DNA from: Halarcobacter mediterraneus
GTDB lineage: Bacteria > Campylobacterota > Campylobacteria > Campylobacterales > Arcobacteraceae
Length of the DNA: 64,000 nucleotides
Reading direction: 5' to 3'
Assembly (NCBI RefSeq): GCF_004116625.1
Contig: NZ_NXIE01000004.1
Span: 186,001-250,000 of the forward strand
Shown piece after piece: positions 2,964 through 22,510 of this stretch. A program made the translations under genes and the position numbers. Position 1 is the stretch's first letter, and every line of letters begins with the position of its first letter. The notes under the pieces are model-generated. The model did not search any database. It had not been told where the DNA came from and saw only the letters and a program-made list of their open reading frames with translations.

Positions 2964-2969
2964 TATAAT
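2964..2969 (+). promoter_or_regulatory. Probable -10 element for the binding-protein/SpoIIE operon
   Basis: TGATATAAT is an extended -10 with a consensus TATAAT, 44 bases before the ATG at 3014. It lies in the 124-base divergent gap between siaB and the binding-protein gene, with T-rich sequence upstream. No -35 box is evident, which is usual in this group. Confidence 0.5.
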
Positions 2970-3013
2970 ATTTCTTATATTTTATTACTTTTTAGTTAGG
3001 ATGAACTTAATTT

Positions 3014-3703
3014 ATGAGAATATTAATCTTTATATTATTAACTTTTTGTATAGGAAATACCTTAGAGATAGTTTTTGAACAGAGAAAACCCTATGTTGAA
3101 AAAACAGAGGACTCAATAAAAGGTTTAGTTGGAAAACCTATTATAAATGCTTTAAATAAGGCTCAAATAGAATATATATTAAAAGAAAAACCTTTTAAAA
3201 GACAATTATATGAAATTAAATCAAATACAAAAGAAATTTGTGCTTTAGGTTGGTTTAAAACAAAAGAAAGAGAAAAGTTTTCAAAGTATTCTACTGTTGT
3301 ATATCAAGATAAACCTTTAGGAATTATTGCTTTATCTAATAAGAATTTTCTTAATCATATTCATATTGATAAACTTTTTTCTTTAAGTAACCTAAAAGTA
3401 TTAGTTAAGGCTTCCTACTCTTATGGCACAATTTTAGATGAAAAATTAAAAAATCCAAAACTAAAGAAAAATGAAGTATTTTCAAGTCATGAAAAAATGC
3501 TTAATTTGATAAAAAATAAAAGAGCTGATTATATGTTTATCTCTAAAGAAGAAGCAGATGTTTTATTAAAAAATGAAAAAAAACTATCTTATTATTCTTT
3601 GGAAGGTCTTCCAACTGGAAATAAACGATATTTAATGTGTTCTAAACTTGTAGAAGACACTACTATAAAAAAAATAAATAAATTTCTAAAAGATAAAAAA
3701 TGA
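3014..3703 (+). CDS. Periplasmic solute-binding protein (SBP family 3-like)
   Basis: The 229-residue product begins with a short signal peptide (MRILIFILLTFCIGNT) and continues as a compact type 2 periplasmic binding fold of the bacterial extracellular solute-binding family 3, at the short end of that family. FEQRKPYVEK near the N-terminus and ADYMFISKEEADVLL near the C-terminus correspond to ligand-domain strands. No transporter genes lie nearby. Its stop overlaps the ATG of the large receptor gene (ATGA), so it probably works as a soluble co-receptor or ligand donor for that receptor rather than in uptake. The ligand is unknown. AGGA at about 2998-3001 is a somewhat distant ribosome site. 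Confidence 0.7.
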   Translation: MRILIFILLTFCIGNTLEIVFEQRKPYVEKTEDSIKGLVGKPIINALNKAQIEYILKEKPFKRQLYEIKSNTKEICALGWFKTKEREKFSKYSTVVYQDKPLGIIALSNKNFLNHIHIDKLFSLSNLKVLVKASYSYGTILDEKLKNPKLKKNEVFSSHEKMLNLIKNKRADYMFISKEEADVLLKNEKKLSYYSLEGLPTGNKRYLMCSKLVEDTTIKKINKFLKDKK

Positions 3704-6700: not shown

Positions 6701-6861
6701 AAGGCTTTCCTTTTGGAAAAAGAAGTTTTCTTAAATTATTAGAAAAGTATTCTTTATATCCTTTATCTAAACAGAAAGAACTTTTAACGAATGATTTATT
6801 TTTATATCAAAATAAAAATGAAAGAAACGATGATATTACTATTATAGGATTTAAAATATGA
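3700..6861 (+). CDS. Membrane receptor: two binding-protein domains, PAS, SpoIIE phosphatase
   Basis: This 1053-residue protein has a signal peptide (1-18) and two tandem SBP family 3 domains, starting near residues 125 (EEKLWLEKNKVIKV) and 367 (EEYKWLDKKRVIRY). A membrane helix follows at about 605-630, then a PAS domain (about 655-765), a short coiled coil and a C-terminal SpoIIE/PP2C phosphatase (about 800-1053). The phosphatase has VGGDIYLFEE, LIDCTGHGVSGAF, LASDGYWDQNGG and a final NDDITIIGFKI, which carry the expected metal-binding aspartates. The inferred role is a ligand-controlled serine/threonine phosphatase. Because siaB and siaC lie next door, the likely substrate is phosphorylated SiaC, making this a functional counterpart of SiaA with a different sensor. 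It overlaps its neighbours by four bases on each side. Confidence 0.85.
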   Translation: MIYKFILIITLFVNFLQGNINKDIKNISALVAPHLYELNNDSLENILENYLKNNQNIKYLILYDTLVNKKYLSYYKNKDKVIKNSFNPKQLNFNCEKVSIDIRYKNEKIGSLEICKESDNALNLTKEEKLWLEKNKVIKVHNEYDWAPFNFNEHKTAKGYSIDYIKLLAKSLGLEIKFVTGTWNESLQKAYNKEIDVMLNIAKTKQRQKHLSYVGIYARNITSILTKKTRDDISNIDSLLGKKVSVVEGFIYEKFLEENYPKIEIIKYKNTLDSIKAVIYDEVDATLGKTASLNYIMNENVIKGLKYTADVKVNDPEMENLYIAVRNDKPILGSLLKKAMQKVSIEEMDKLKLKWFNQKRRVQFTKEEYKWLDKKRVIRYSEVNWKPLAIIEKNSMTGIIGDYLNIVAEATGIEFEFVPSNSWPEVLEKFKNKEIDLVPGIGDTKEETSLGAVSKKYATFPMVIISNESVNYIDSLDDIKNKVLSIPKFYTSYNYIKEIYPNIKIIETENIFDALLNVSNKDADIFLGHLAPTIYYMTKIGKDNLKIVGNSGVNFKHHFLINPELPELLSITNKVFDSLTQKERDKIYNGWIDVKVKQNLGFSLKKILSYLLPLLFIILLIILIIIYWNRKLKILVDKKTADIFSKKQELQSLVDSFDRNVIFVQTDLNGIITHPSKAFCEISKYSESELKGKGSNIVRHPDSDENLFKELWQTIKAQKRWSGEIKNMAKDGTTYWLYSKIEPAYNKSLEFIGFKAISQDITNRKIVESLSKNLEKKVEERTFDLQKAKNEIELMHQNTKDSIEYASLIQSSLIPSNELFEKHFSDSFQLWEPKDIVGGDIYLFEELNDNECILMLIDCTGHGVSGAFVTMLVKAIERQIIAFIKNNNEKVSPAKILSIFNKSMKHLLKQETADSISNVGFDGSIIYYNKKEKIIKFSGAELPLIFTYNKKVNIIKGNRHSVGYKKSQASYTFDEHEVEVQKGMTFYLASDGYWDQNGGKKGFPFGKRSFLKLLEKYSLYPLSKQKELLTNDLFLYQNKNERNDDITIIGFKI

Positions 6862-7793
6862 ATGAAGATGAAATAAAAACACAATATGTAGGAAAGTTTT
6901 TGGAAAATGACTATAATAAGTTTAAAGATGGTTTATTAGAATTATTAGAAGATTATAAAAGAAAAAGCCAAAGATTAGATAAGATTATAAAACAAAGTGA
7001 CAAAATGCAGTTAAGGCTCATAAATGCAAATGAAGAACTTGCAGAATATAAAAACAATTTAGAAAAAAAAGTAGAAGAAGAAATATTAAAAAGAAAAGAA
7101 AAAGAAAAAATTATTTTAGAACAATCTAAATTTGCTGCTATGGGTGAAATGATTGATGCAATAGCACACCAATGGACTCAACCTTTAAGTATTCTAAGTC
7201 TTTATTCTAATTCTTTAGAATTTGATTACAAAGAAGGAATTGTTAATGAAGCTTATATTGATGATTTTCAAAAAAAAGTAAATGCTACTATTGAGCATAT
7301 GAACTGTACACTTACAGAGTTTAGAACATTTTTCAGAGAAGATAAAAAAAGAGAAGAGTTTGATATCAAAACAATGATTGAAAAAGTTTTTTTATTTGTA
7401 AAAGATGAATTTATAAAAGAAAAAATAACTTTAACTTTAAAAATAGATAATGATTTTAAAATTATTGGGATTGAAAATGAGTTTAAACATATCTTACTTA
7501 ATCTTATTAATAATTCAAAAGATGCATTTATTGTAAACAAGATAAAAGAAAGAGAAATTATTGTTAAAGCATATGTTACTGATGATAGTAAAGTTTTAGA
7601 AATAAGTGATAATGCAGGAGGAATACCTTTTGAAATACTTGATGATATTTTTAAAGCAAACTTTACAACAAAAGGAAATAGTGGTACAGGAATTGGTCTT
7701 TATATGAGTTCTTTAATTGCACAAAAATATCACTGCAAATTATCTGTAGAAAATATTGAAGAAGGTGCACAGTTTAAATTAATCATTAATTAA
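6858..7793 (+). CDS. Soluble histidine kinase with coiled coil
   Basis: This 311-residue kinase has no membrane span or sensor domain. A long coiled coil (about 36-95) leads to the H-box at H104. The box reads AIAHQWTQPLS, with threonine where the other two kinases here have arginine. The ATPase part is complete: LLNLINNSKDAF, SDNAGGIPFE and GTGIGLYMSS. It is the last gene of the receptor operon (ATGA overlap with the SpoIIE receptor), so it may take its signal from that receptor through the coiled coil. No response regulator is in the window. The 3' end overlaps the convergent EAL gene by 15 bases. Confidence 0.88.
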   Translation: MNEDEIKTQYVGKFLENDYNKFKDGLLELLEDYKRKSQRLDKIIKQSDKMQLRLINANEELAEYKNNLEKKVEEEILKRKEKEKIILEQSKFAAMGEMIDAIAHQWTQPLSILSLYSNSLEFDYKEGIVNEAYIDDFQKKVNATIEHMNCTLTEFRTFFREDKKREEFDIKTMIEKVFLFVKDEFIKEKITLTLKIDNDFKIIGIENEFKHILLNLINNSKDAFIVNKIKEREIIVKAYVTDDSKVLEISDNAGGIPFEILDDIFKANFTTKGNSGTGIGLYMSSLIAQKYHCKLSVENIEEGAQFKLIIN

Positions 7794-10448
7794 ATCATCA
7801 TTTGGAATACCTAGGTAAAAACCTTGAGAATAGTCAACATTTAATTTTTTGACTTCTTCAAAAGTTTCTTTATCAGAAACAAATTCAGCAATGGTTTGAA
7901 ATCCCATTTTGTTTGCAAAATCTATCATTGTTTTTACTAACTCTTTTGAACTTTCATTTATAGTAATATCTTTTATTAAAGAACCATCAAGTTTTATATA
8001 ATCTGCATCAATTCTAAGTAGATATTCAAAGTTACTATATCCTGTACCAAAATCATCAATTGCAATTTTACAACCATAAGATTTAAACTGTTTTACAAAA
8101 TCACTAATTTTGTCAAAATCTTCTATATTCTCAGACTCTACTAATTCTAAAACTAGTTTATCATTTATTTTATATTCTTTTATTTTTTTCGTTAAGTATT
8201 CAATTAGTTCTTTATTTAAAATATCTTCTATTGTTAAGTTTATAGAAAATTCACAGTCTAAATTTTCAAATTTCTTAAAAGATATATCTATTACTTTTTT
8301 GGTAATTTCAATATATTGTTTAGATTTTTTAGCAATTCCTAAGAAGTAAAAAGGGGAAATCAATTTCCCATCTTTTTCTTTCATTCGTACTAAAACCTCA
8401 TATTTTTCAATTTTCATTGTTTTATTATTTAAAATTGGTTGGTATTGAACAACAATTCTATCATCATGTAAGGCACTTTTTATTTTTTCAACCCAAATAA
8501 GACTATCTTCAAATTCCCTTTCTATTTGAAGTTTTTTAGAATATATTAATAAATGTTTGTTTAATTTCTTTGCATGTTTATTCGCAACTTCTGCTGTTAA
8601 TAAAACTTCATACTGATGTTCAAATGATATTCCAACAGTAGTAAGTATATCAAAAGATTTCACTCCTAAATCAATTTTTGATTCAATCATTTTTGTATTT
8701 AAAAGTTCAATAAAATTTGTAAATTTAGTTTGATCTAAACTATTATTTAAAATAGCAAACTTATCTGCATGTAGTCTATAAAGTACAAAATCTTTATTCA
8801 AATAACTTTGAATTAAAATAGAAAATTGTCTAATTACAACATCTCCTATAACATGTCCATAAAAGTCATTTATTGAAGAAAAGTTATCTATATCAATAAC
8901 TGCAATATTATTTAAATCATGTTTTTCTAATTCTTCAACTAACTTTGTTCTATTTCCACAGTTTGTTAAACTATCTTTTGTTGCCAAATCCAAAAGACTT
9001 TGTTTTTGCTCCATTAGTTCTGTAATATCATGTCTAATACCAACATATTCAAGTATTTTATTTTTTTTATCAAGTATTGGAACAACTGCTAATTTAACAT
9101 AATAAGAACTACCATCTTTTTTTCTATTTTTTAAAATTCCTGTCCAAGTTTTTTTATCTTGTATATTGTTCCATAATTCTTTGAAAGTTTCTTTAGGCGT
9201 ATCTTTTGAACGAAGAAGTGAATGAGGTTTTCCAATGGCTTCCTCTTTTGTATATCCTGTAACTTTACAGAAGTTATCATTTACATAGGTGATATTACCT
9301 TTTAAGTCAGCTTTTGTAATTATATTATCTATATTCATAGCTTCAATATATTCATTAAAAAGAAGCTCTATTTCTTCAAGTTTTTCTTTTTCTTGAAAAA
9401 GTTTTTTTGCAAGTTTTGAAGGAATTAAAGAGAGTAAAATACCTAGAAAAATACTAATAATAAAAACAATAGATAAAATATTTAATAGTGAATTGATGAT
9501 TGATTTTTTCAATTGAGCAATATTATCTTTTTTTGTTTCTAAAATTAAAAATAATTTTTGTTTTAAATTTAATTCATCACTTATATATTTAGAAAAAATA
9601 TTTTTATTTAAATATTCTTTACTTTTTAAAATAGCATTTACTTCTTCTGGTAAATAATTTTTTAGTTTTATATTTTTTTGTAAATCTTTTGACCATGATA
9701 AATCTTTTATGGAGTTGTTAAATGCAGTTTCTCCAAATAAGAATTCTCCTTTTTCATCAACTAGTGAAACCTTAAATAAGTTGGATTTTTGAAGTTCATT
9801 TAGGATTTCTTCCATAAAAATATTAAAAATAATAATACCTTTAAACTCTTGCAGGTCATAAAGTACGGTTGCTATTCTAAAAGTAGGAACATAAGGTATT
9901 TGTATTTTATTATTCTCAATATTTAAATCAATATTAGAAGTCCAATATGTATTATCTAAAATTTTTGATGTTTCTTTGAAGTAGTATCTTTGAGACTTAT
10001 CTTGAAGTTGTGATTCTTTTGTTTGTATAGCTTCTTCTAAAAAAGTTCGTTCAAAACGAATTTTTTCTAAACCTTTATTATCAATAAACCTTAATTGCAT
10101 TATTTTTTGGTCAGAATTTATAATATGGGAAAATAACTTACTTAAAGTATCTTTACTCTTTTTATCTTGCTTTTGTAAATATTCTAACATAAGTTCGTTT
10201 TTTCTAAGTGAAAAAAGGTAGTTTTTATATCTTTTTAAATAGTTATTTAATTTTGAAACTTTATTTTCTATTTCAAGATTTGCATCTATAATAATTTTAT
10301 TTTCTAATTGTTTTTCTTGATATTTGTAATTTATATAAAAAGTTAGAGAAGTGGTTAAAAAACCAAATAATACAAAAGATAGTACAAAGAATATCTTTAT
10401 ATTAAAGGCATTTTTTATAAATATATTAAATCTGCTTTTTTTTATCAT
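7779..10448 (-). CDS. Membrane PAS / degenerate GGDEF / EAL phosphodiesterase
   Basis: The 889-residue product has two membrane helices (about 22-44 and 318-342) around a roughly 270-residue extracytoplasmic sensor, then PAS (about 370-480), GGDEF (about 488-640) and EAL (about 660-885). The active-site motif of the GGDEF domain is replaced by LHADKFAI (near 561), so cyclase activity is unlikely. The EAL domain keeps its key residues: YEVLVRM, SINLTIEDI, ELVESE, IAIDDFGTGYS, YIKLDGSLI and TIAEFVS. It should hydrolyse c-di-GMP, with the GGDEF remnant perhaps binding GTP as a regulator. It is a single gene, and its ribosome site lies in a small hairpin (see 10449-10484). Confidence 0.88.
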   Translation of the reverse strand: MIKKSRFNIFIKNAFNIKIFFVLSFVLFGFLTTSLTFYINYKYQEKQLENKIIIDANLEIENKVSKLNNYLKRYKNYLFSLRKNELMLEYLQKQDKKSKDTLSKLFSHIINSDQKIMQLRFIDNKGLEKIRFERTFLEEAIQTKESQLQDKSQRYYFKETSKILDNTYWTSNIDLNIENNKIQIPYVPTFRIATVLYDLQEFKGIIIFNIFMEEILNELQKSNLFKVSLVDEKGEFLFGETAFNNSIKDLSWSKDLQKNIKLKNYLPEEVNAILKSKEYLNKNIFSKYISDELNLKQKLFLILETKKDNIAQLKKSIINSLLNILSIVFIISIFLGILLSLIPSKLAKKLFQEKEKLEEIELLFNEYIEAMNIDNIITKADLKGNITYVNDNFCKVTGYTKEEAIGKPHSLLRSKDTPKETFKELWNNIQDKKTWTGILKNRKKDGSSYYVKLAVVPILDKKNKILEYVGIRHDITELMEQKQSLLDLATKDSLTNCGNRTKLVEELEKHDLNNIAVIDIDNFSSINDFYGHVIGDVVIRQFSILIQSYLNKDFVLYRLHADKFAILNNSLDQTKFTNFIELLNTKMIESKIDLGVKSFDILTTVGISFEHQYEVLLTAEVANKHAKKLNKHLLIYSKKLQIEREFEDSLIWVEKIKSALHDDRIVVQYQPILNNKTMKIEKYEVLVRMKEKDGKLISPFYFLGIAKKSKQYIEITKKVIDISFKKFENLDCEFSINLTIEDILNKELIEYLTKKIKEYKINDKLVLELVESENIEDFDKISDFVKQFKSYGCKIAIDDFGTGYSNFEYLLRIDADYIKLDGSLIKDITINESSKELVKTMIDFANKMGFQTIAEFVSDKETFEEVKKLNVDYSQGFYLGIPNDDLIND

Positions 10449-10484
10449 TTTACCTCAGTTTTTAATAATTGAGGCAATATTATA
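10449..10484 (-). promoter_or_regulatory. Promoter and ribosome-site hairpin of the EAL gene
   Basis: On the minus strand TGATATAAT gives a consensus -10 (10484-10479). The short leader then reads GCCTCA, a 12-base loop and TGAGGT, with GAGG as the ribosome site four bases before the ATG. The six-pair stem (one G-U) would hide the ribosome site. The hairpin is small, so its effect is uncertain. Confidence 0.4.
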
Positions 10485-10507
10485 TCATAAGAAAACCAAC
10501 TAATAAT

Positions 10508-11455
10508 TTAAGGCTTGATTTTCTTATATGCTTCATCTAAACTTTTTGATGCAGTGAGAAGTTGAACTTTTTCTTTTTTATTTAAAGATAATCTTAGTCT
10601 ATGTTCAATTCCTAAAGAACCAATTACACAAGGAAGACTTAATACTGTACCTTTTTCCAGATTATATTCTTCATTTGCTCCTACGGAAACTGAAAATATT
10701 TTTTTCTCATCCCTTATAACACATTGAATAAGTTTTGCAACAGCAATTGCTACTCCAAAATTTGTATAACCTTTTCTTTGTATTATTTCATAGGCTCTTT
10801 TTTTTACTATTTGCATAGTTTTTTCTTTCATTTCTTTAAGCTCTAAATTTTTTGGTAAAGGAAAGTTTTTTAGTTTAATTGAACCTATAATAGCATTTGA
10901 CCACACTGCAAATTCACTATCTCCATGTTCTCCTACGACGTGAATATGTACATTTTTTCTATTAACATTTAATTCTTTTCCTACTTGATAACGTAGTCTT
11001 GAAGTATCTAAAACAGTTCCTGATCCAAATATTTTTTTCTTATCTCTTGAACTTGTTTCTTGTGCTACCCTTGTAAGAATATCTACAGGATTCGATACCA
11101 TTATAAGTACAGCATTGGGTGCGAATTTATCAAGTTTTGTTATTATTTCTTTTGTAATTTTTGTATTTCTTCCAAGGAGTTCTAACCTCGTTTCTCCTTC
11201 TTTTTGTCTTGCTCCAACTGTGATTGCAATTACATTGCAATCAGAAATGTCTTCATATTTATTAGTGGCTTTGATTTTCATTTCAGATAATAAAGGAATT
11301 GTATCATCGATATCCATTGCTTCGGCAACAGCTTTATTTTTATCTCTATTAAATAAGACTATTTCTTTACCAATATTTCTAAGAACAAGTGCATTAACAA
11401 TAGCTGCACCTACATTTCCTGCACCAATAACACCTATTTTAGAATAGTTTAACAT
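10508..11455 (-). CDS. ldh: L-lactate dehydrogenase
   Basis: This is a 315-residue member of the lactate/malate dehydrogenase family. The nucleotide loop is GAGNVG (11-16). The specificity position is Q84 in GARQKEGETR, which marks lactate rather than malate (malate enzymes have arginine there). Catalytic residues are R90, D150, R153 and H177 (VGEHGDSE). The enzyme interconverts pyruvate and L-lactate in the cytosol. The acidic residue after the second beta strand that normally binds the NAD ribose is replaced by N36-R37 (VLFNRD), so the coenzyme preference may have moved towards NADP. It lies just after a histidine kinase gene on the same strand, separated by an AT-only hairpin. Confidence 0.88.
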   Translation of the reverse strand: MLNYSKIGVIGAGNVGAAIVNALVLRNIGKEIVLFNRDKNKAVAEAMDIDDTIPLLSEMKIKATNKYEDISDCNVIAITVGARQKEGETRLELLGRNTKITKEIITKLDKFAPNAVLIMVSNPVDILTRVAQETSSRDKKKIFGSGTVLDTSRLRYQVGKELNVNRKNVHIHVVGEHGDSEFAVWSNAIIGSIKLKNFPLPKNLELKEMKEKTMQIVKKRAYEIIQRKGYTNFGVAIAVAKLIQCVIRDEKKIFSVSVGANEEYNLEKGTVLSLPCVIGSLGIEHRLRLSLNKKEKVQLLTASKSLDEAYKKIKP

Positions 11456-11465
11456 TTGAAGCCTT

Positions 11466-11504
11466 TTTTTCTTTAAATTTTAGCTAGATAAATTTAAAGA
11501 AAAA
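11466..11504. repeat. Perfect 15-bp A/T-rich inverted repeat upstream of ldh
   Basis: The arms 11466-11480 and 11490-11504 are exact reverse complements of 15 bp around a 9-base loop. It begins five bases after the stop of the histidine kinase gene and ends next to the AAGG ribosome site of ldh on the minus strand. There is no following U-run on either strand, so it is not a standard intrinsic terminator. It could be a processing or stability hairpin or a protein-binding dyad. Confidence 0.6.
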
Positions 11505-11508
11505 TTAT

Positions 11509-13449
11509 TTAAAGTTCAAATCTTATTTCAAAACATGCACCTTTATAGTTTTTATTAAAATAGTTAAAGTTTTTATTAAAAACAAAAATTTGACCATCTA
11601 AATGTTTTGTCACAAGTTCTTCGGTCATATATAAACCAATTCCTGTTCCTTGTGCTTGATGTTTTGTAGTAAAATAGGGTTCAAAAACTCTATTTATAAT
11701 CTTTTCTTCTATTCCTCCGGCATTGTCATAGATTTTTATTACTAAATAATTTTCTTCTTTTAATACATCAATAAAGATTAGTTTTTTCTCTTGAGTTTCA
11801 TTGAAGATCTCAAGTGCATCACGTGAATTATTTAATATATTTAGTAAGACTTGTATTAACTTATTATTTATTGTAAAAAGTTCTTCATTACAAGTAATAT
11901 TTTTTATAATATGAATACTTTGTGCATTAAATTGAGCTTCAATTAGTTTCAAAGTATTATTAATTAAATCTTCAATAAAAACTTTTTCTTTTTCTTTTAT
12001 ATTTGGTCTAAAAAAGTTTCTAAAGTCTTCAATTATTTTTGATAAAAGTTGACTAGAATCATTTATTGTATTTAAAGCTGAGTATAAGTCTTTATCTTTT
12101 AATGTACCCATTTCCTTTTGTATTATTACTCCTGTTGCCGCTACAGAAATTGTAGATAATGGCTGTCTCCATTGATGAGCAATATTCCCTATCATCTCTC
12201 CCATTGCAGCCATTTTTGATTGTTGATATAAAACAGCTTCTTTTTGTTTTGTTTGAGTTAAATCTACAAAAGATGAAATAACTACATTTTTATTATTTAT
12301 TTTTGCCTTGCTTATTTTTATTAATAAAGGAAGAACTTTTCCTTTTGCTGTAAGAATTTTTATTTCAAAAGTTTTATTATATTCTTTTCTCAAATTATTT
12401 ATTATTGTTTTCTTATCTTCTTTAATAACTAAATCTAAAATATTTTTCCCTAAAAACTCTTTTTTATCATATTCTAAAATTTTTAAAGCATAGTTATTTA
12501 TACTAATACATTTATTGTTTTGACTTACTATAACACCATCTATAGAACTATTTAATATTTTTAACATATCTTGATTTATTTTTTTCAATAATTGATGTCT
12601 ATATATAAGAAAAATAATAATCAATGATGCCATAAATACAATAATAAAAATAGTAGTATAGTCTATTCTTTCTTTTATTATTGTTGGTTGTGTCCATCTT
12701 GAGTATATGTCTTTTTTCTCTTCATATGAGATAGAATGAATAGTTTTATTAATAATAGATAATAAGACTTTTTGGTCTTTTTGAAGTAAAAATCTATGGT
12801 CATACATAAACGATGTTGTACCTGATATTTTTAAATTTTTTAAATAATTTTCAGTCATATAATATATAGAAGTGGCAATATGTCCAATAAAGGCATCAAC
12901 TCTTTCTTTTTCAACAAGAAGTAATGCTTCTGTTATAGAATCTGTTTGAACTATATTTATCTTTGGATAGTTCTCTTTTATAAAGTTATAACTAGTGTAG
13001 TATTTTGGAACAGCAATAGTTTTATTTTTTAAGCTATTTAAATCTTTTAAATGTTTATATTTAGATGTTGATGTTACAATTACCATTGGATAGGAAATAT
13101 ATAAATCACTTATTATTCCATTGTGTATTTCATTCATACTAGAATCTACACCTGGAAGTAAATCAATCTCTTTTTTCTTAAATTTATTTATAGCATCTTT
13201 CCAGTTTTCTGAAGGTATATATTTAAACTTTATTCCAGTTTTTTTTGAGATAATATTTAAATAGTCTGCCATTATCCCTTCCATCTTATTATCTTTAATA
13301 ATTGATAGTGGAATCCAGTTTACTTCACTAAAAGTTACGATAGGATTATTTTTAATCCATTGTTTTTCTTCTTGGTTTAGGTTTATGTTTTCATTTGCTT
13401 CTAAAAAGTTTAGGCAGATGAATATTAGTAATAATATTAATTTTTTCAT
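11509..13449 (-). CDS. Hybrid sensor: binding-protein domain, PAS, histidine kinase
   Basis: The 646-residue protein starts with a signal peptide (KKLILLLIFICLNFLEA) and one SBP family 3 domain (about 22-262). A membrane helix follows at about 268-290, then a PAS domain (about 300-410) and a kinase core. The core has an H-box GNIAHQWRQPLSTI near residue 426, an N-box LLNILNNSRDAL, a G1 box IYDNAGGI and a G2 box GTGIGLYMTE. The sensor resembles the second binding domain of the SpoIIE receptor at 3700-6861 along its whole length (SEVNWxPLxII, YTSYNxIKExYP, GHxAxxIYYMT). The two proteins therefore probably sense related ligands with different outputs. No cognate response regulator is visible. 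A minus-strand TATAAT lies at 13496-13491. Confidence 0.88.
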   Translation of the reverse strand: MKKLILLLIFICLNFLEANENINLNQEEKQWIKNNPIVTFSEVNWIPLSIIKDNKMEGIMADYLNIISKKTGIKFKYIPSENWKDAINKFKKKEIDLLPGVDSSMNEIHNGIISDLYISYPMVIVTSTSKYKHLKDLNSLKNKTIAVPKYYTSYNFIKENYPKINIVQTDSITEALLLVEKERVDAFIGHIATSIYYMTENYLKNLKISGTTSFMYDHRFLLQKDQKVLLSIINKTIHSISYEEKKDIYSRWTQPTIIKERIDYTTIFIIVFMASLIIIFLIYRHQLLKKINQDMLKILNSSIDGVIVSQNNKCISINNYALKILEYDKKEFLGKNILDLVIKEDKKTIINNLRKEYNKTFEIKILTAKGKVLPLLIKISKAKINNKNVVISSFVDLTQTKQKEAVLYQQSKMAAMGEMIGNIAHQWRQPLSTISVAATGVIIQKEMGTLKDKDLYSALNTINDSSQLLSKIIEDFRNFFRPNIKEKEKVFIEDLINNTLKLIEAQFNAQSIHIIKNITCNEELFTINNKLIQVLLNILNNSRDALEIFNETQEKKLIFIDVLKEENYLVIKIYDNAGGIEEKIINRVFEPYFTTKHQAQGTGIGLYMTEELVTKHLDGQIFVFNKNFNYFNKNYKGACFEIRFEL

Positions 13450-13586
13450 GTTCTTTTCCTATATTCTACTTTATTAGTAACTATAAGAATATTATATGCT
13501 TAAAAGGTAACACAATAGTATTATAATGTAAAATAATTTAAAGTTTGATTTTTTTATTTTATAAAATATTTTTGATAGAAGATTTT

Positions 13587-13612
13587 ATAAATAGGACAAA
13601 AGTCCTATTTAT
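13587..13612 (-). terminator. Probable terminator after dctM
   Basis: An 11-bp perfect stem (core AAATAGGAC/GTCCTATTT) with an AAAA loop lies 12 bases beyond the dctM stop. Neither strand has a strong U-run after it, so it may be a weak or Rho-assisted terminator. It is nearly symmetrical and could act in both directions. Confidence 0.5.
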
Positions 13613-13623
13613 TATAGTTGTTA

Positions 13624-14907
13624 TTAACCACCATACATCAAGTTAGGTAAAAACATAGTAATCTGAGGAATATAAGTTACTAAAATTAATCCTACTAAGA
13701 TAGTCATTGTCCAAGGGAAGGCTGCTACAATAACATCTTTTATACTCATTCCAGTAAGTCCAGATGTAACAAATAAATTTAATCCTACAGGTGGGGATAC
13801 CATTCCAAGTTCCATATTAACTGTAATAATAATACCAAAATGAATAGGATCAATTCCAAGTGCAACGGCAACAGGAAGTAATAAAGGTACCATAATCATA
13901 ATAATAGCACTTGGTTCCATAAATGAACCAGCTAAAATTAGAAGTAAGTTAACAGCTATTAAGAACATATATTTATTTACATTTGCTTCAACTAAAGCTT
14001 CAGTAATTGCTTGAGGAATATTTTCAATTGTTAAAAAGTGTGCAAATAACATTGCATTTGCAATAATAAACATAATCATTGCAGTAGTTTTTGCAGACTC
14101 TAAAGCAGTTGGCCATATTTCAGTGATTTTTATATCTTTATAAATAAAAACAGAAACGATAAATGCCCAAACGCAAGCTACAGCAGCAGCTTCAGTTGGT
14201 GTAAAAATACCTCCATAGATACCACCAATAACTAAAACAATAGTCATAAGTCCCCATGAGGCATCTTTCATTTTTGCTAATCTCTCTTTAAAAGGTTTTG
14301 GTTCAGTTCTTTCAAAGCCTAATCTTCTTGCACCAATATATGTTACAACCATCATCATAATACCAAGCATTATTCCAGGAACAACCCCAGCCATAAATAG
14401 TTTACCAATAGAAACTTCAGCTGTAACTCCATAAACGATTAATACAATTGAGGGTGGTATCAAAATTCCAAGAGAACCAGCTGTTGCAATAGTCCCGACT
14501 GCATATTTCTTTGGATATCCAGCTTGCATAATTGCCCCAAACATAATTGAACCAATAGCAACAACAGTAGCAGGAGAAGAACCAGATACAGCTGCAAATA
14601 TTATTGAAGCAAAAATTGCAGAAATAGGAAGCCCACCAGGAAGATGACCTACTACAGATTTAGCAAACTCAATAATTCTTTGTGCAGCACTACCTTTTGA
14701 TAATAGATTCCCTGCAAAAATAAACATTGGAATTGCCATTAAAGAGTAATGTTCTACTTTGTTAAATATCATTGCTGATACTTCAATAGGTGAAATAGGA
14801 GTAAATAATAATAGTGTTACAAAAGTAGCAGCTCCAAGACAAATTGCAATAGGAGTTCCTAAAATAACTAAAAAGAAAAATATTCCAAATAATACAGCTA
14901 CACTCAT
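13624..14907 (-). CDS. dctM: TRAP transporter large permease DctM
   Basis: The 427-residue, highly hydrophobic protein has the DctM length and pattern: about 12 membrane segments, GTPIAICLGAA near the N-terminus, a PMFIFAGNLLSKG segment, SGSSPATVVAIGSIM, and NMELGMVSPPVGLNLFV near the C-terminus. DctM is the translocating subunit that moves a carboxylate with sodium across the inner membrane. It receives substrate from DctP and is held by DctQ. The ATG overlaps the dctQ stop by four bases. It closes the operon dctP-dctQ-dctM, with a hairpin downstream. Confidence 0.95.
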   Translation of the reverse strand: MSVAVLFGIFFFLVILGTPIAICLGAATFVTLLLFTPISPIEVSAMIFNKVEHYSLMAIPMFIFAGNLLSKGSAAQRIIEFAKSVVGHLPGGLPISAIFASIIFAAVSGSSPATVVAIGSIMFGAIMQAGYPKKYAVGTIATAGSLGILIPPSIVLIVYGVTAEVSIGKLFMAGVVPGIMLGIMMMVVTYIGARRLGFERTEPKPFKERLAKMKDASWGLMTIVLVIGGIYGGIFTPTEAAAVACVWAFIVSVFIYKDIKITEIWPTALESAKTTAMIMFIIANAMLFAHFLTIENIPQAITEALVEANVNKYMFLIAVNLLLILAGSFMEPSAIIMIMVPLLLPVAVALGIDPIHFGIIITVNMELGMVSPPVGLNLFVTSGLTGMSIKDVIVAAFPWTMTILVGLILVTYIPQITMFLPNLMYGG

Positions 14908-15527
14908 AGCATTCCTCCTGTTTTCTTTTCAACTTCTTTTACCATATTATTTAGTTCTTTTACATGTTCATTTTTATTGTCACTTTGTTTTTCTCCAAGT
15001 TCTGCTAAAATCATTTCAGCTTCACTCTCTTTTAAGATTTTATCATGGCTTGTAGATAAAATACCATGAATTCTTTCTGCTACTCTATATGCTGCAAAAG
15101 CAAAAGAAATAGGGATAACAAGATAAATTACCCACATTGGTATATTCCAAAGATCAATTGATCTTTCATCTAAATCAATAACTAATAAAATATATTCATA
15201 TCCATAATATGAAACAGCACATAAGAAAATAAAAGTTACTAGATGGGAAAGTAGAAGCATAATTTTTGCAATTCTAGATGGCATTAAATCCAAAATAATT
15301 GTAACTGCAATATGAGCATCTTTTTTAAAACAGTATGCTGCTCCAAAAAATACACTCCATAAAAACAAGAATACCGTTAATTCTGTTGCCCATACCAGTG
15401 AAGCATCAAATACATATCTTGCTACAACATTTATAAATGCAACTGCAACCCCGGCAGAAATACCGATGGCTGCAATTGATTGGTTAATAAATCCAATAAT
15501 TTTACTAATAGTTTTTAATACAATCAT
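14904..15527 (-). CDS. dctQ: TRAP transporter small permease DctQ
   Basis: The 207-residue product has four predicted membrane helices, including AIGISAGVAVAFINVVARYV and ELTVFLFLWSVFFGAAYCF, as expected of DctQ. A charged cytoplasmic tail of about 45 residues (EKQSDNKNEHVKELNN) makes it slightly longer than the shortest family members. DctQ pairs with DctM and couples to DctP. Its ribosome site GGAG lies within the last codons of the upstream dctP copy, so the 3' end of that copy is fixed by the need to start dctQ translation. The gene begins three bases after that dctP stop. Confidence 0.93.
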   Translation of the reverse strand: MIVLKTISKIIGFINQSIAAIGISAGVAVAFINVVARYVFDASLVWATELTVFLFLWSVFFGAAYCFKKDAHIAVTIILDLMPSRIAKIMLLLSHLVTFIFLCAVSYYGYEYILLVIDLDERSIDLWNIPMWVIYLVIPISFAFAAYRVAERIHGILSTSHDKILKESEAEMILAELGEKQSDNKNEHVKELNNMVKEVEKKTGGML

Positions 15528-15530: not shown

Positions 15531-16586
15531 TTACTCCGTCGCTAATGCGCCTTTAATAAGGTCTTCACCGATTTTATTGTTGTCGTAGAATTCAGGATAA
15601 ATTTTACTAACAGCAGTTCTCCAAGCCTCTTTTTGCTCATCAGTTAAATGAAGGATTTCTAACTTACCAGTAGAATCAGCATATTCTTTGATTAAGTTAA
15701 ATTGTTCATTGTTTAAATCAGCAGCAAGTTGTCTTTCTTTTTCAGTAGCTTCATTCATAGCTTGTTTAACATCTTCTTGTAAATCAGCAGGTAAAGAATT
15801 ACAGAATTTTTTAGATAAAACAACTAAATAACCTAAGTAACCATGATAAGAAATAGTTAAATACTTTTGAACCTCATGGAACTTTTTCGTATAAATATTA
15901 GAAATAGGGTTCTCAGCCGCATCAATAACACCTTGCTGTAATCCAGAATAAACTTCAGAGAAAGGCATCATTTGAGGGTTAGCACCAACAGCATGGAATT
16001 GAGCTTCTAAAACTTTAGAAGACATAATTCTAAATTTTTGACCTTGAGCATCTTCAGGAAGAACTAAAGGTTTTTGAGAAGAAGATAATTGTTTAAAACC
16101 ATTATCCCAAAAAGATAAAGCAACATATCCCTTATCAGTAACCATATCTTTAAGTTTTTGACCAACTTCACCATCTTGAACTCTATGTAAATGATCAATA
16201 TCTTTAAATAAGAAAGGTAAATCAAATAAAGCTAATTGAGGAACAATCTTACCAAATTTAGAAAAAGCAGGTGCAGCCATTTGAACAGAATCTAACTTTA
16301 AAGCTTTTAAAACAGCATTATCAGTATAAAGTTGAGAAGAAGGGTAAACTTGAACATCAATTCTACCTTCTGATAACTCCTCAAGTCTTTTTTCAAAGAA
16401 ATCAGCAGCTTGCCCTTTAGGTGTATTAGCACTTACAACATGAGAAAATTTTAATACAAATTGCTCAGCAGTTTGTTTAGTTGTTTGAGATTCATTGTTT
16501 TCTTTTTTAGTATCTCCACAACCTGTGAATAATAACATCGAAGCTACCGCTACACTCGATACTATCCCTTTCATTGTTTTTGTCAT
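15531..16586 (-). CDS. dctP: TRAP solute-binding protein DctP, copy A
   Basis: The 351-residue binding protein has a lipoprotein signal (MLLFTGC, acyl cysteine 23), so it is membrane-anchored, whereas many TRAP binding proteins are free. Family marks include FSHVVSANTPKG, GQKFRIMSS with the carboxylate-binding arginine, and ENPISNIY. These fit the C4-dicarboxylate DctP group. It is the operon copy, directly before dctQ. It differs from copy B at only two internal residues: Y247 (D in B) and C262 (W in B). Tryptophan in the FWxxLP segment is the usual family residue, so copy A is the unusual one. The last residues differ too (LATE, against LNTK in B). Confidence 0.92.
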   Translation of the reverse strand: MTKTMKGIVSSVAVASMLLFTGCGDTKKENNESQTTKQTAEQFVLKFSHVVSANTPKGQAADFFEKRLEELSEGRIDVQVYPSSQLYTDNAVLKALKLDSVQMAAPAFSKFGKIVPQLALFDLPFLFKDIDHLHRVQDGEVGQKLKDMVTDKGYVALSFWDNGFKQLSSSQKPLVLPEDAQGQKFRIMSSKVLEAQFHAVGANPQMMPFSEVYSGLQQGVIDAAENPISNIYTKKFHEVQKYLTISYHGYLGYLVVLSKKFCNSLPADLQEDVKQAMNEATEKERQLAADLNNEQFNLIKEYADSTGKLEILHLTDEQKEAWRTAVSKIYPEFYDNNKIGEDLIKGALATE

Positions 16587-16599
16587 CTCTTTTCTCCTT
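15546..16599. repeat. dctP direct repeat, unit A (1054 bp)
   Basis: Positions 15546-16599 match 16747-17800 at a constant offset of 1201 bases. I found only two differences: 15801 (a) against 17002 (c), and 15848 (a) against 17049 (c). The match stops sharply just beyond the ribosome site and just inside the 3' end of the gene. Confidence 0.9.
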
Positions 16600-16616
16600 T
16601 TTAGTATTATTCTTTG

Positions 16617-16649
16617 ATTATAATGAAAAGATATGTAAGCTTTATGTAT
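16617..16649 (-). promoter_or_regulatory. Promoter region of dctP copy A
   Basis: Bases 16619-16649 match 17821-17851 upstream of copy B at 27 of 31 positions and sit at nearly the same distance from the gene. On the minus strand the -10 box is TATAAT (16622-16617). Upstream, the conserved part reads ACATATCTTTT. Confidence 0.5.
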
Positions 16650-16698
16650 GTAGATAAATTTTTGTTAAATTTAAGATAGATAGTTATTATAAGAAACA

Positions 16699-16720
16699 GA
16701 CTATCGGATTACCGATAGTC
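16699..16720 (-). terminator. Intrinsic-type terminator after dctP copy B
   Basis: GACTATCGG, ATTA, CCGATAGTC forms a perfect 9-bp stem with a 4-base loop, 11 bases after the copy B stop. On the minus strand it is followed by TGTTTCTTAT, a modest U-rich run. It should separate copy B from the dctPQM operon. Confidence 0.7.
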
Positions 16721-16731
16721 TTGAGGGAGAG

Positions 16732-17787
16732 TTATTTTGTGTTAAGTGCGCCTTTAATAAGGTCTTCACCGATTTTATTGTTGTCGTAGAATTCAGGATA
16801 AATTTTACTAACAGCAGTTCTCCAAGCCTCTTTTTGCTCATCAGTTAAATGAAGGATTTCTAACTTACCAGTAGAATCAGCATATTCTTTGATTAAGTTA
16901 AATTGTTCATTGTTTAAATCAGCAGCAAGTTGTCTTTCTTTTTCAGTAGCTTCATTCATAGCTTGTTTAACATCTTCTTGTAAATCAGCAGGTAAAGAAT
17001 TCCAGAATTTTTTAGATAAAACAACTAAATAACCTAAGTAACCATGATCAGAAATAGTTAAATACTTTTGAACCTCATGGAACTTTTTCGTATAAATATT
17101 AGAAATAGGGTTCTCAGCCGCATCAATAACACCTTGCTGTAATCCAGAATAAACTTCAGAGAAAGGCATCATTTGAGGGTTAGCACCAACAGCATGGAAT
17201 TGAGCTTCTAAAACTTTAGAAGACATAATTCTAAATTTTTGACCTTGAGCATCTTCAGGAAGAACTAAAGGTTTTTGAGAAGAAGATAATTGTTTAAAAC
17301 CATTATCCCAAAAAGATAAAGCAACATATCCCTTATCAGTAACCATATCTTTAAGTTTTTGACCAACTTCACCATCTTGAACTCTATGTAAATGATCAAT
17401 ATCTTTAAATAAGAAAGGTAAATCAAATAAAGCTAATTGAGGAACAATCTTACCAAATTTAGAAAAAGCAGGTGCAGCCATTTGAACAGAATCTAACTTT
17501 AAAGCTTTTAAAACAGCATTATCAGTATAAAGTTGAGAAGAAGGGTAAACTTGAACATCAATTCTACCTTCTGATAACTCCTCAAGTCTTTTTTCAAAGA
17601 AATCAGCAGCTTGCCCTTTAGGTGTATTAGCACTTACAACATGAGAAAATTTTAATACAAATTGCTCAGCAGTTTGTTTAGTTGTTTGAGATTCATTGTT
17701 TTCTTTTTTAGTATCTCCACAACCTGTGAATAATAACATCGAAGCTACCGCTACACTCGATACTATCCCTTTCATTGTTTTTGTCAT
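16732..17787 (-). CDS. dctP: TRAP solute-binding protein DctP, copy B
   Basis: This 351-residue copy has the same lipoprotein signal, arginine site and ENPISNIY segment as copy A. It keeps D247 and W262, which fit the family pattern around DHGYLGY and KKFWNSLP. It stands alone upstream of dctPQM, with its own promoter region and a terminator after it, so it can supply extra binding protein independently of the permease genes. The C-terminus is LNTK. Near-identity with copy A, despite diverged flanks, suggests recent duplication or repeated gene conversion. Whether both copies are needed, or bind different ligands, cannot be told from sequence. Confidence 0.92.
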   Translation of the reverse strand: MTKTMKGIVSSVAVASMLLFTGCGDTKKENNESQTTKQTAEQFVLKFSHVVSANTPKGQAADFFEKRLEELSEGRIDVQVYPSSQLYTDNAVLKALKLDSVQMAAPAFSKFGKIVPQLALFDLPFLFKDIDHLHRVQDGEVGQKLKDMVTDKGYVALSFWDNGFKQLSSSQKPLVLPEDAQGQKFRIMSSKVLEAQFHAVGANPQMMPFSEVYSGLQQGVIDAAENPISNIYTKKFHEVQKYLTISDHGYLGYLVVLSKKFWNSLPADLQEDVKQAMNEATEKERQLAADLNNEQFNLIKEYADSTGKLEILHLTDEQKEAWRTAVSKIYPEFYDNNKIGEDLIKGALNTK

Positions 17788-17800
17788 CTCTTTTCTCCTT
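16747..17800. repeat. dctP direct repeat, unit B (1054 bp)
   Basis: Partner of 15546-16599. Beyond the repeat, the two leaders differ for about 20 bases and then become similar again in the promoter element (27 of 31). Confidence 0.9.
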
Positions 17801-17818: not shown

Positions 17819-17851
17819 AGTATAATAAAAAGATATGTAAAACTTATGTAT
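17819..17851 (-). promoter_or_regulatory. Promoter region of dctP copy B
   Basis: This matches the element upstream of copy A. The hexamer at the -10 position reads TATACT on the minus strand (17824-17819), against TATAAT in copy A, so the two copies may have different basal strength. Confidence 0.45.
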
Positions 17852-18073: not shown

Positions 18074-21000
18074 ATGGGATGTAATTTAGATTTACTTACT
18101 TCTTTTAAAGACAACTGTGGTTTTGGTTTAGTTGCTGATTTAAAAAATAGACCAAGTCATGAGAATTTAGAAGATGCTATAACTTCGCTTGAGCGAATGA
18201 TGCACAGAGGTGCAGTGGCAGCTGATGGTAAAACTGGTGATGGTTCAGGTTTACTTTTATCTATGCCTAATAAATTTATGAGAAAAATAGCTAATGAAAA
18301 AGGTATTGATTTACCAGAAACATATGCAGTAGCTATGATATTTACAAAAGATCTTGAAGACATTGATATTTTTATAGAACAATGTGAAGAAAATGATTTA
18401 AAAGTTTTATTTACAAGAGAAGTTCCTCTTGATACTGATGCTCTGGGGGAGCAAGCTTTAGAAACTTTACCTCACATAATTCAAGTTTTTGTTAGTGCTA
18501 GTGCACTTATGACATCAAAAAGATTTGATGCTATGTTATATTTAACTAGAAAAGAATGTGAACACAAATTAAAAGATAAACAAGATTTTTATATTCCAAC
18601 ATTTTCATCTAAAGTAATAGCGTATAAAGGGCTAGTAATGCCTACGCATATTAAAAAGTTTTATATTGATTTAAGAGATGAAGATTTTCAAATCTCTTTT
18701 TCATTATTTCATCAAAGATTTTCTACAAATACTTTACCTCAATGGAAACTTGCTCAACCTTTTAGATCAATTGCACATAATGGTGAAATTAATTCAGTTG
18801 AAGCAAATAGAGTAAATGTTCAAATAAAATCAGAACAAATAAAATCAGAAGTTTTTACAGATGAAGAATTAAAAAGAATATTACCTATTTTACAAGATGG
18901 TGGTTCAGATTCTGCCTCATTAGATAATATGTTTGAGTTTTTAATTGTAAATGGAGTTGATTTTTTCAAAGCAGCAAGATCATTAGTTCCTGCACCATGG
19001 CAAAATGCTCCACATATGGATTCTGATTTAAGAGCTTTTTATGAGTATACTTCAACTGCAATGGAAGCTTGGGATGGACCAGCAGCAGTATCTTTAACTG
19101 ATGGAAGACATATAGGTTGCTTAATTGATAGAAATGGTTTAAGACCTTCAAAATATATAATTACTAAAAACCACAAGATTTATGTTACTTCTGAGTATGG
19201 AACAATAGATTTAGATGAAGATAATGTTTTAGAAAGAGGTAGATTACAATCTGGTCAAATGATGGGACTAGATTTAAAACATGGAAAAGTTTTAAAAGAA
19301 GATGATATTAATGATTATTTAAAATCTTCTCAAAACTATGTACAATGGTTAAATGGCGATATGGAATATTTACAAGAGTACATAGATGAATCATTTTTAG
19401 AAAATGAAGATTACATTATTGATGAGTTAGAAAAGAAACAAAAATATTTTAATATAACTTATGAAGTATTAGATCAAATGATTGATCCAATGGCAAAAGA
19501 TGGTAAAGAACCAGTAGGGTCTATGGGTGATGATACACCATTAGCCTGTTTTTCTCAAGTAAATAGAAATTTTACCGATTTCTTTAGACAAAAATTTGCC
19601 CAAGTAACAAACCCACCAATTGATCCATACAGAGAAAAAATAGTGATGTCTTTAGAAACTGGATTTGGGCATATTCATAATATTTTAGATGAAAAACCAG
19701 AATATGCAAAAAGATTAAAGGTTGCATCTCCTATTTTAATGAAAGAAAAATTTGATGTATTAAAATCTTTTGGAGATTCAACATCTCCAAGATATGATGA
19801 ATATTTTAAAAATAAAACTTTCTCAACAACATTTAAAAGTGATTTAAAAACAGCTTTACAAAATTTAGCTGAAAAAGTAATTGATTCTGTTAAAAATGAT
19901 AATGTATCAATTGTATTTTTATCTGACCAAAAAGTATCAGAAGAAACAAAACTAATTCCAATGGCTATGGCAATAGGATTTATAAATGAATCTTTGATAA
20001 AAGAAGGAGTTAGAAGTAAGGTTTCTTTGATAGCTATTACAGGAGAAGTGTATGATCCTCATATGGCTGCAGTAATGACAGCATATGGAGTTACAGCAAT
20101 TTATCCATATATGATGTATGCTTCAGTTTATGAGCTTCATAAAACTAAAGTATCTTCAAAATATCAAATGCAAACTTTATTAAAAAATACTCAAAAAGCA
20201 TTAAATGCTGGACTTCTTAAAATTATGTCTAAAATGGGTATTTGTACAATTGCTTCTTATAGAAACTCAAGACTATTTGATATAATTGGTTTAAGTGATG
20301 AAATTATTAATGACTGCTTTGAAGGTTCACACTCAGATTTAGCAGGTCTTTCATATGAAGATATTGAAAAAAGAATTGAGAAATCACATTTTAATGCTTT
20401 CTTTGATGATAAACATATTTTTCCACTAGATTTAGGTGGTTTTTATAAATATATGAATGATGGTGAATACCATGATTATGGTCCAGCTACAACAAATGCA
20501 ATGCATAATAAACAAGCAAAAGATAAAGAAGATATTTCAGACTTTAAGAAATTAAAAGAATTAGTTGAAACAAGAGGTCAAAAATTTATTAGAGATTTCT
20601 TTGAATTTAATTCTGATAAAGAAGCTATCGATATATCAGAAGTTGAATCAATAGAAGATGTTTTCAAAAGATTTGCAACAGCTGCAATGTCTTGTGGTTC
20701 TATTTCTCCAGAAGCTCATGAAGCAATGGCAATGGCAATGAATACAATTGGTGGTATGTCAAACTCTGGTGAAGGTGGAGAAGACCCAAAAAGATTTAAC
20801 TCTCTTAAAAATTCAAAAATAAAACAAGTTGCTTCAGGTAGATTTGGTGTTACACCAGGTTACTTAAGAAGTGCCGAAGAGATTCAGATTAAAGTAGCAC
20901 AAGGTGCAAAACCAGGTGAAGGTGGTCAATTACCAGGACATAAAGTAACTGCATTAATTGCAAGTTTAAGACATACAGTTGAAGGTGTTACACTTATTTC

Positions 21001-22510
21001 ACCTCCTCCACACCATGATATTTATTCTATTGAAGATTTAGCTCAATTAATTTTTGATTTAAAACAAATTAATCCTGAAGCAAAAATTACAGTTAAATTA
21101 GTATCAACAATTGGTGTTGGAACAATTGCCGCTGGTGTAGCAAAAGCTTATGCAGATAGAATTGTTATTTCAGGTGCAGATGGTGGTACAGGAGCTGCTC
21201 CTCTTACATCTATTAAGCATACTGGTAATCCTTGGGAGATGGGACTTTCTGAAGCACACAATGCTTTAAAAGCTAACCAATTAAGAGAATCTGTTCATAT
21301 TCAAACAGATGGTGGTTTAAAAACTGGTCTTGATGTAGTAAAAGCTGCAATGCTTGGTGCAGAATCTTATGCTTTTGGTACAGCTGCATTAACACTTCTT
21401 GGGTGTAAAATTTTAAGAATTTGTCATACAAATAAGTGTTCTGTAGGTGTTGCTACTCAAGATGAAGACTTAAGAGATCATTTTACAGGTACAGTTGAAA
21501 GACTTATCTCTTACTTTACTTTTGTTGCACAAGATGTTAGAGAAATTCTAGCTTCTTTAGGTTATAAATCACTAGGAGAAGTTGTTGGAAGATCAGATTT
21601 ATTAAAAGTTATTGATGATGAATTTGCTCAAAAGTTTGATTTCCAAAATGTTCTTAGAAGAATTGATGGTGTTGATACTTGTCAAAAAGAGTTTAATACT
21701 CCTTATGATAAGAATAAATTTGAAAAAGAGCTACTAAAAAAAGTTCATAGAACAATAGAAAAACCAAATACACCAATTAAAGTGAAAGAAACTATTTGTA
21801 ACTTAAATAGATCATTTGGTACATTAATTTCTGGTGAAATTGCTAAATATTATGGAGATGAAGGGCTTCCTGATGGTTCAATTAATATCTTCTTAAAAGG
21901 TATTGCAGGTCAGTCTTTTGGAACACTTTTATCAAAAGGAATGAATCTTTATTTAGATGGTGCAGCAAATGATTATGTTGGTAAAGGAATGAATGGAGGG
22001 AAAATTATTGTTAATACTCCACTTCAAGGTCCAGAGTTTGCTGGTGCTGGTAACACTTGTCTTTATGGAGCAACTGGTGGTAAACTTTATGTTAGAGCAA
22101 CAGTTGGAGAAAGATTTGGTGTTAGAAACTCAGGTTGTATAGCTGTAGTAGAAGGTACTGGTGATAATGCTTGTGAATATATGACAGGTGGAATTGTTGC
22201 AATCTTAGGAAATACAGGAATTAACTTTGGTGCTGGTATGACAGGTGGTTTATCATTTGTTTATGATCCTGAAAAATTATTTGTTGATAAAATGAATCAA
22301 GAATTGATAGAAGCAGTTAGAATTGATACCGATGATACAGAGAGAGAAAGACTATTCTTAAAAAGATTATTAATGGATTATTTAAATGAAACTGAGTCTT
22401 TAAGAGCTGAATTTATTTTAGAAAACTTTAGAGCTGCAATTAGAGATTTTTGGTTAGTAAAACCAAAAAATATGACAGTGTTACCTCTAAATCCAGAGGA
22501 GGGAGATTAA
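18074..22510 (+). CDS. gltB: Glutamate synthase (NADPH) large subunit
   Basis: The 1478-residue protein has the full GltB layout: a class II glutamine amidotransferase domain, a central domain, an FMN/2-oxoglutarate synthase domain and a C-terminal GXGXG beta-helix. The expected catalytic cysteine is C15 (DNCGFGLVA) after a 14-residue propeptide. The FMN domain has GVTPGYLRSAEEIQIK and SGADGGTGAAPL. The 3Fe-4S cysteines are C1111, C1117 and C1122. The enzyme moves the amide of glutamine to 2-oxoglutarate, giving two glutamates. It is followed after one base by gltD. Confidence 0.97.
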   Translation: MGCNLDLLTSFKDNCGFGLVADLKNRPSHENLEDAITSLERMMHRGAVAADGKTGDGSGLLLSMPNKFMRKIANEKGIDLPETYAVAMIFTKDLEDIDIFIEQCEENDLKVLFTREVPLDTDALGEQALETLPHIIQVFVSASALMTSKRFDAMLYLTRKECEHKLKDKQDFYIPTFSSKVIAYKGLVMPTHIKKFYIDLRDEDFQISFSLFHQRFSTNTLPQWKLAQPFRSIAHNGEINSVEANRVNVQIKSEQIKSEVFTDEELKRILPILQDGGSDSASLDNMFEFLIVNGVDFFKAARSLVPAPWQNAPHMDSDLRAFYEYTSTAMEAWDGPAAVSLTDGRHIGCLIDRNGLRPSKYIITKNHKIYVTSEYGTIDLDEDNVLERGRLQSGQMMGLDLKHGKVLKEDDINDYLKSSQNYVQWLNGDMEYLQEYIDESFLENEDYIIDELEKKQKYFNITYEVLDQMIDPMAKDGKEPVGSMGDDTPLACFSQVNRNFTDFFRQKFAQVTNPPIDPYREKIVMSLETGFGHIHNILDEKPEYAKRLKVASPILMKEKFDVLKSFGDSTSPRYDEYFKNKTFSTTFKSDLKTALQNLAEKVIDSVKNDNVSIVFLSDQKVSEETKLIPMAMAIGFINESLIKEGVRSKVSLIAITGEVYDPHMAAVMTAYGVTAIYPYMMYASVYELHKTKVSSKYQMQTLLKNTQKALNAGLLKIMSKMGICTIASYRNSRLFDIIGLSDEIINDCFEGSHSDLAGLSYEDIEKRIEKSHFNAFFDDKHIFPLDLGGFYKYMNDGEYHDYGPATTNAMHNKQAKDKEDISDFKKLKELVETRGQKFIRDFFEFNSDKEAIDISEVESIEDVFKRFATAAMSCGSISPEAHEAMAMAMNTIGGMSNSGEGGEDPKRFNSLKNSKIKQVASGRFGVTPGYLRSAEEIQIKVAQGAKPGEGGQLPGHKVTALIASLRHTVEGVTLISPPPHHDIYSIEDLAQLIFDLKQINPEAKITVKLVSTIGVGTIAAGVAKAYADRIVISGADGGTGAAPLTSIKHTGNPWEMGLSEAHNALKANQLRESVHIQTDGGLKTGLDVVKAAMLGAESYAFGTAALTLLGCKILRICHTNKCSVGVATQDEDLRDHFTGTVERLISYFTFVAQDVREILASLGYKSLGEVVGRSDLLKVIDDEFAQKFDFQNVLRRIDGVDTCQKEFNTPYDKNKFEKELLKKVHRTIEKPNTPIKVKETICNLNRSFGTLISGEIAKYYGDEGLPDGSINIFLKGIAGQSFGTLLSKGMNLYLDGAANDYVGKGMNGGKIIVNTPLQGPEFAGAGNTCLYGATGGKLYVRATVGERFGVRNSGCIAVVEGTGDNACEYMTGGIVAILGNTGINFGAGMTGGLSFVYDPEKLFVDKMNQELIEAVRIDTDDTERERLFLKRLLMDYLNETESLRAEFILENFRAAIRDFWLVKPKNMTVLPLNPEEGD

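Follow-up and report, generated by a model that had tools for sequence, protein, structure and literature searches.

Near-identical tandem dctP genes with position-specific flanks in Halarcobacter mediterraneus and related species: probable recurrent gene conversion of an old pair

The window, a stretch of 64,000 nucleotides from Halarcobacter mediterraneus (contig NZ_NXIE01000004.1, positions 186,001 to 250,000), carries two dctP genes in tandem that are almost the same along more than a thousand nucleotides and differ on either side of this block. This raises the question of how two adjacent genes can be kept alike while their promoters and 3' ends diverge. An earlier note, made from the sequence alone, proposed gene conversion, and the closeness of the copies within genomes, their identity at synonymous sites and the grouping of their flanks by position support that proposal. 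We consider it likely that an old tandem pair has undergone recurrent intragenomic gene conversion, limited to the ribosome-binding site and the reading frame.

The dctP pair and its locus

The genes and the boundaries of the block are as follows (positions of the window):
16732..17787, minus strand: dctP copy A, upstream gene, 351 aa, lipobox-type leader LFTGC, tail NTK
15531..16586, minus strand: dctP copy B, downstream gene, 351 aa, body as in A, tail ATE, D247Y and W262C
16747..17800, minus strand: copy A side of the homogenised block (1,054 nt)
15546..16599, minus strand: copy B side of the homogenised block (1,054 nt), with two mismatches against A
16732..16746, minus strand: A-specific 3' tail and stop codon, presumably unconverted
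15531..15545, minus strand: B-specific 3' tail and stop codon, presumably unconverted
14904..15527, minus strand: dctQ, small membrane subunit (PF04290)
13624..14907, minus strand: dctM, large membrane subunit (PF06808)
18074..22510, plus strand: gltB, glutamate synthase large subunit, the divergent neighbour that anchors synteny

Both copies scored above the curated cut-offs of PF03480 (DctP; E 3.3e-109 and 2e-106 for the two copies) and TIGR00787, which identifies them as DctP solute-binding proteins of the TRAP type; the nearest solved chain to copy A is 4ovs_A (E 5.6e-122), and the names of the family and of this chain suggest a C4-dicarboxylate as the ligand. As in TRAP DctPQM systems (PF03480, PF04290, PF06808; TIGR00787, TIGR00786), all three subunits are present in operon order; unlike the standard arrangement, there are two binding-protein genes, the first with a hairpin of its own.

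Aligned at an offset of 1,201 between A and B, the block contains exactly two mismatches (15801/17002 and 15848/17049), in agreement with the 1054-bp match with two differences that had been claimed. At its 5' edge it includes 13 identical nt before the ATG (beginning within the ribosome-binding region), past which the leaders diverge, and at its 3' edge the last 15 nt of dctP mismatch at 8/15 positions, giving the C-terminal ends ALNTK in copy A and ALATE in copy B; the earlier observation of differing leaders and tails is thus borne out. Each of the two mismatches within the block is a G-to-T change in copy B, read on the coding strand, and alters the encoded residue (D247Y and W262C). Site 247 is N or D in 52/52 other copies examined and site 262 is W in 51/52, and either copy B is under relaxed constraint in the window's strain or these are draft errors.

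Locus regions were analysed for 34 of the 104 genomes of the family. The genomes compared are one per species, from species of the window's genus (g1), the window's own species being represented by this strain alone; dctP starts were picked by script according to the best ribosome-binding site, and the first ATG after the stop of B was taken as the dctQ start. The gene order gltB (divergent), dctP-A, dctP-B, dctQ, dctM, with two complete dctP genes, is found in 14 of the 16 genomes of the genus. In G010, titled a MAG, A is split over two contigs: 129 nt of its 5' end close a contig that includes the beginning of gltB, and a second contig, which has B, dctQ and dctM, opens with the 3' end of A. 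G009 (1/16) has one dctP copy (L115 6804-7856, minus strand), which combines the A promoter with the B tail; the intergenic region between A and B, looked for elsewhere in this genome, was not found, and the single copy reflects either a crossover deletion or an assembly collapse. Family-wide, 87/104 genomes gave a dctP match at E 1e-60 and 19/104 gave two, the latter comprising 14 g1, 3 g3, 1 g4 and 1 g10.

Old paralogues and position-specific flanks

In 11/16 genus genomes, A and B are only 71.7-83.0% identical at the DNA level, as old paralogues. In these genomes, here called unconverted, A has 331-341 residues and no lipobox, B is 350-355 residues long and includes a cysteine motif as well as a linker, and in all 11 A ends in NTK and B in ATE. 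A lipobox with its cysteine near residue 23 was found in 14/14 B copies of the genus, in 3/3 converted A copies and in 0/11 unconverted A copies, using a loosened form of the motif that in G011_B matched at residue 11 despite the presence of a TGC near residue 23. The lipobox-bearing dctP products are predicted lipoproteins, their acylation being putative.

Three further elements of the window flank the copies:
17819..17850, minus strand: presumed A promoter element, TACATA direct repeat (11-nt period) plus ATTATACT
16617..16648, minus strand: presumed B promoter element, TACATA direct repeat (11-nt period) plus ATTATAAT
16698..16721, minus strand: terminator-like hairpin between A and B with a weak T-run, -15.9 kcal/mol, z -5.31

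The two promoter elements are 87% alike over 31 nt, which matches the count of 27 of 31 given previously. In the genus genomes that have both copies complete, A has ATTATACT as its -10-like box (14/14) and B has ATTATAAT (14/14). Over the upstream 150 nt, the A regions of the window's genome (G000), G003 and G008 are mutually 61-78% alike, compared with 38-50% to their B regions; the clustering of upstream regions follows position (A regions together, B regions together) and not genome. The tail NTK occurs in every complete A copy of the genus (14/14) and also in the G010 fragment of A, ATE occurs in 16/16 B or single copies, and a hairpin 3' of A, folded for the window only, was seen by eye in the 15 genus genomes whose intergenic region was read. 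Since promoters, hairpin and tails have stayed position-specific, the duplication is old, with only the reading frame and the ribosome-binding site overwritten. The earlier note had named the flank pattern of a single recent duplication as evidence that would speak against conversion; the A tail, the hairpin and both promoters, shared by position across the genus, contradict it.

A sigma-70 consensus scan picked up neither dctP promoter element, and as counts neither the promoter-like sites (15 versus 23.0 in shuffles) nor the terminator-like sites of the scanned region (4 versus 2.2 in shuffles) give support beyond chance. No third TACATA-type element was found in the window's genome with a pattern built from both elements and up to 3 mismatches. 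The B promoter box of G000, G008 and G010 resembles the A box, and G003 retains the B form that is usual elsewhere in the genus; the A-like box possibly reflects a short stretch of promoter converted from A to B, or else selection.

Homogenisation within genomes and competing explanations

In G000, G003 and G008, copy A has a B-type leader and body, and such a leader also opens A in G010, making four genomes. The comparison of copies within a genome with orthologues, proposed earlier for strains, was run here across species: outside the tail, A and B differ at 2 (G000), 0 (G003) and 1 (G008) positions, and dctP identity between these genomes is 83.7-91.7%, so that paralogues are closer than other-species orthologues in 3/3 clade genomes with two full copies. 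With the tail dropped, synonymous differences between A and B amount to 0/~214 sites in G000, 0/~212 in G003 and 1/~212 in G008, and dS between the three genomes reaches 0.38-0.78 for dctP, 0.29-0.90 for dctM and 0.31-0.57 for gltB. When the mature region was divided into 90-nt windows, a genome's own paralogue was strictly closest in 28 (G000), 26 (G003) and 26 (G008) of 28, versus 0/28 in 11 of the 15 further genomes that were tested, and in the mature-domain tree the copies of these three genomes pair by genome. The tract ends are abrupt in G000 and G003; G008 has one difference at nt 9, and its leaders are offset by one base beside the ATG. In G010, the broken A copy of which is absent from all dctP trees and tests, the legible 129 nt of the A 5' end equal B, and the 3' fragment has three differences just before the tail. 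As the two copies of each genome are closer to each other than to any copy of another genome, homogenisation would have taken place in at least three lineages after they had split.

Copies alike within and unlike between genomes would also be expected if a single dctP had been duplicated in tandem recently and separately in each species, and single genes do exist, in G009 and in six g15 genomes (probably Malaciobacter), the latter with a leader judged by eye to be lipobox-like. A fresh duplicate of B would, however, bring a B tail or a B promoter to the A position, where the genus has its A promoter, NTK tail and hairpin in common, followed by the B promoter; for G000, G003 and G008, the common intergenic region contradicts the idea, which we reject as highly improbable. 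Near-identity within genomes, taken together with old position-specific flanks, thus argues for repeated B-to-A conversion, or for double crossover. Paired unequal crossovers, expanding to three copies and then contracting, would leave an identical end product, and the G009 copy could be a crossover deletion product; yet two events would be required every time, and three dctP matches at E 1e-60 occur in none of the 104 family genomes, so that we regard this route as unlikely, though with a better claim than the duplications.

Two further explanations were considered. Strong purifying selection is compatible with the low between-genome dN of dctP (0.02-0.08), but it has next to no chance of accounting for synonymous sites that are near-identical within genomes when dS is 0.38-0.78 between them, and we reject it. 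An assembly or polishing artefact could be suspected, as G000 (29 contigs) and G008 (about 60 contigs) are drafts and the contigs of G010 break inside A. Against this, G003, a single contig of 2,684,688 bases and the only single-contig assembly among the homogenised genomes, has no A/B difference outside the tail, and the B-type leader stands on A in G000, G003, G008 and G010 alike; an artefact is accordingly dismissed as very doubtful.

The direction of the putative conversion can be read from a few sites. Eight residues are diagnostic of A versus B across the 11 unconverted genomes. Four of them (20, 97, 154 and 341) are in the B state in the converted A copies (3/3), and the two that lie in the tail (349 and 351) are in the A state; at position 41 every converted copy is in neither state, and position 259 is in the A state in both G000 copies and in neither state in the other converted copies. 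The B state at these four sites suggests the direction B to A. In the mature-domain tree, 12 B copies of other genomes (11 genus, one g4) group together (92/99) without any A; this DNA tree, the bootstrap of which had not settled, gave no clear placement of the clade's body with A or with B. The gltB tree, which does not include G010, unites G000, G003, G008 and G009 in one clade (100/100), and the dctM tree, which does, puts the unconverted G013 inside the clade, contrary to gltB; it is therefore not certain that the leader swap arose only once.

Partial conversion tracts are suggested in four more genomes, G005 and, from another genus (g3), G047, G048 and G049, in which the own paralogue was strictly closest in 3, 11, 14 and 4 of 28 windows, respectively. 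Permutations with an equally long run, over all polymorphic sites, numbered 0 for each of G005, G047 and G048, 8 for G049 and 29 for G012 of 2,000; with third positions only, the signal was weaker (22, 3, 24, 63 and 1,099 of 2,000 for G005, G047, G048, G049 and G012). This tract test covered 18 genomes, without correction and leaving out G069, the 19th two-copy genome, and it dropped columns gapped in any of 36 rows.

Under recurrent conversion, an old tandem pair of TRAP solute-binding-protein paralogues, each with its own promoter, would have had the A sequence replaced by that of B, leader and body, in the clade of the window, after which the copies would have been re-homogenised separately in at least three lineages, presumably by non-reciprocal homologous recombination. 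The flanks may escape owing to weak homology, and probably also to distinct jobs, with a terminator-like hairpin after A and the end of B apparently serving as the dctQ ribosome-binding site. Copy A would then be a separate unit with promoter and hairpin, and B the first gene of dctPQM; the two promoters could yield more binding protein than dctQM membrane part, and conversion would keep the products the same.

The 3' boundary and comparison with known systems

The boundary at the end of B coincides with a further feature:
15534..15537, minus strand: GGAG in the last codons of B, putative dctQ ribosome-binding site, 6 nt before the dctQ ATG

The sequence ACGGAG stands at the end of B in 16/16 genus genomes (counting the single copy of G009 and the complete copy of G010), this end reading ACGGAGTAA or ACGGAGTAG in all 16, with the GGAG located 5-10 nt upstream of the first ATG past the stop of B, taken as the dctQ start, again in 16/16. 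The end of A is without GGAG and runs into the hairpin. In three g3 genomes, the GGAG comes after the stop of B instead (read from the sequence, the script having taken an earlier ATG in G048), and the A and B tails are alike, NTK or STK. To judge by these motifs, the last codons of B look like they double as the dctQ ribosome-binding site. Selection against tracts running through the tail is a possible reason for the 3' boundary, which loss of homology past the gene can equally explain. A more specific account, in which a binding protein that was soluble in the periplasm became, through conversion, a second one tethered to the membrane, with tracts bounded by selection on the overlapping dctQ Shine-Dalgarno sequence, is tentative, and we put its chances somewhat below even. 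If it is true, (i) the tail is the only part of the protein shielded from homogenisation, and (ii) the two genes act as a single exchangeable body with two expression settings that stay fixed.

Campylobacter belongs to the same phylum as the organism of the window. Its fla locus consists of tandem genes that are 95% identical, with two promoters (sigma-28 and sigma-54), and intragenomic recombination has been suggested for it (PMC5126078). The dctP pair resembles fla in having tandem genes under different promoters with suggested recombination within the genome; it differs in that its products are transporter binding proteins, not flagellins, in that its genes are as much as 100% identical once the tail is left aside, and in that both promoters share the TACATA element. 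Long-lasting concerted evolution in prokaryotes has been described for 26 genes, tuf, amo, tkt and fla among them (PMC6053082), where, as here, paralogues are closer than orthologues, also at synonymous sites, and synteny excludes independent duplication. Unlike the genes treated there, dctP is absent from that paper's two tables, which list no TRAP gene either, and the available discussion names only fla and mtrA as tandem copies. A limited literature search yielded no account of dctP conversion or duplication in this group: the available part of PMC11265409 had no dctP, dicarboxylate or duplication term, and that of PMC5812351 had nothing on a dctP conversion case. The dctP pair is probably a new instance of a known process, concerted evolution by gene conversion. 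Its interest lies in several points: (i) unconverted, apparently partly converted and fully converted states coexist in one family, a readable natural experiment; (ii) tails and promoters that kept their old form indicate the donor and the boundaries; (iii) conversion can swap the type of product of a gene with its regulation untouched; (iv) the overlapping ribosome-binding site offers a testable reason for the tract to stop.

A response regulator (Trans_reg_C domain) and a Cache-domain kinase lie within ~5 kb of the dctM end in G003 and ~12-15 kb beyond it in G000, and it is a guess that this pair reads the TACATA element. The ~12.6 kb between dctM and the Cache kinase in the window (1033-13623) hold sensor genes, a lactate/malate dehydrogenase and a GGDEF/EAL gene; the corresponding gap in G003 is ~2 kb, with two other genes. 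At 3700-6861, the window encodes a 1,053-residue protein with SBP_bac_3, PAS and SpoIIE domains.
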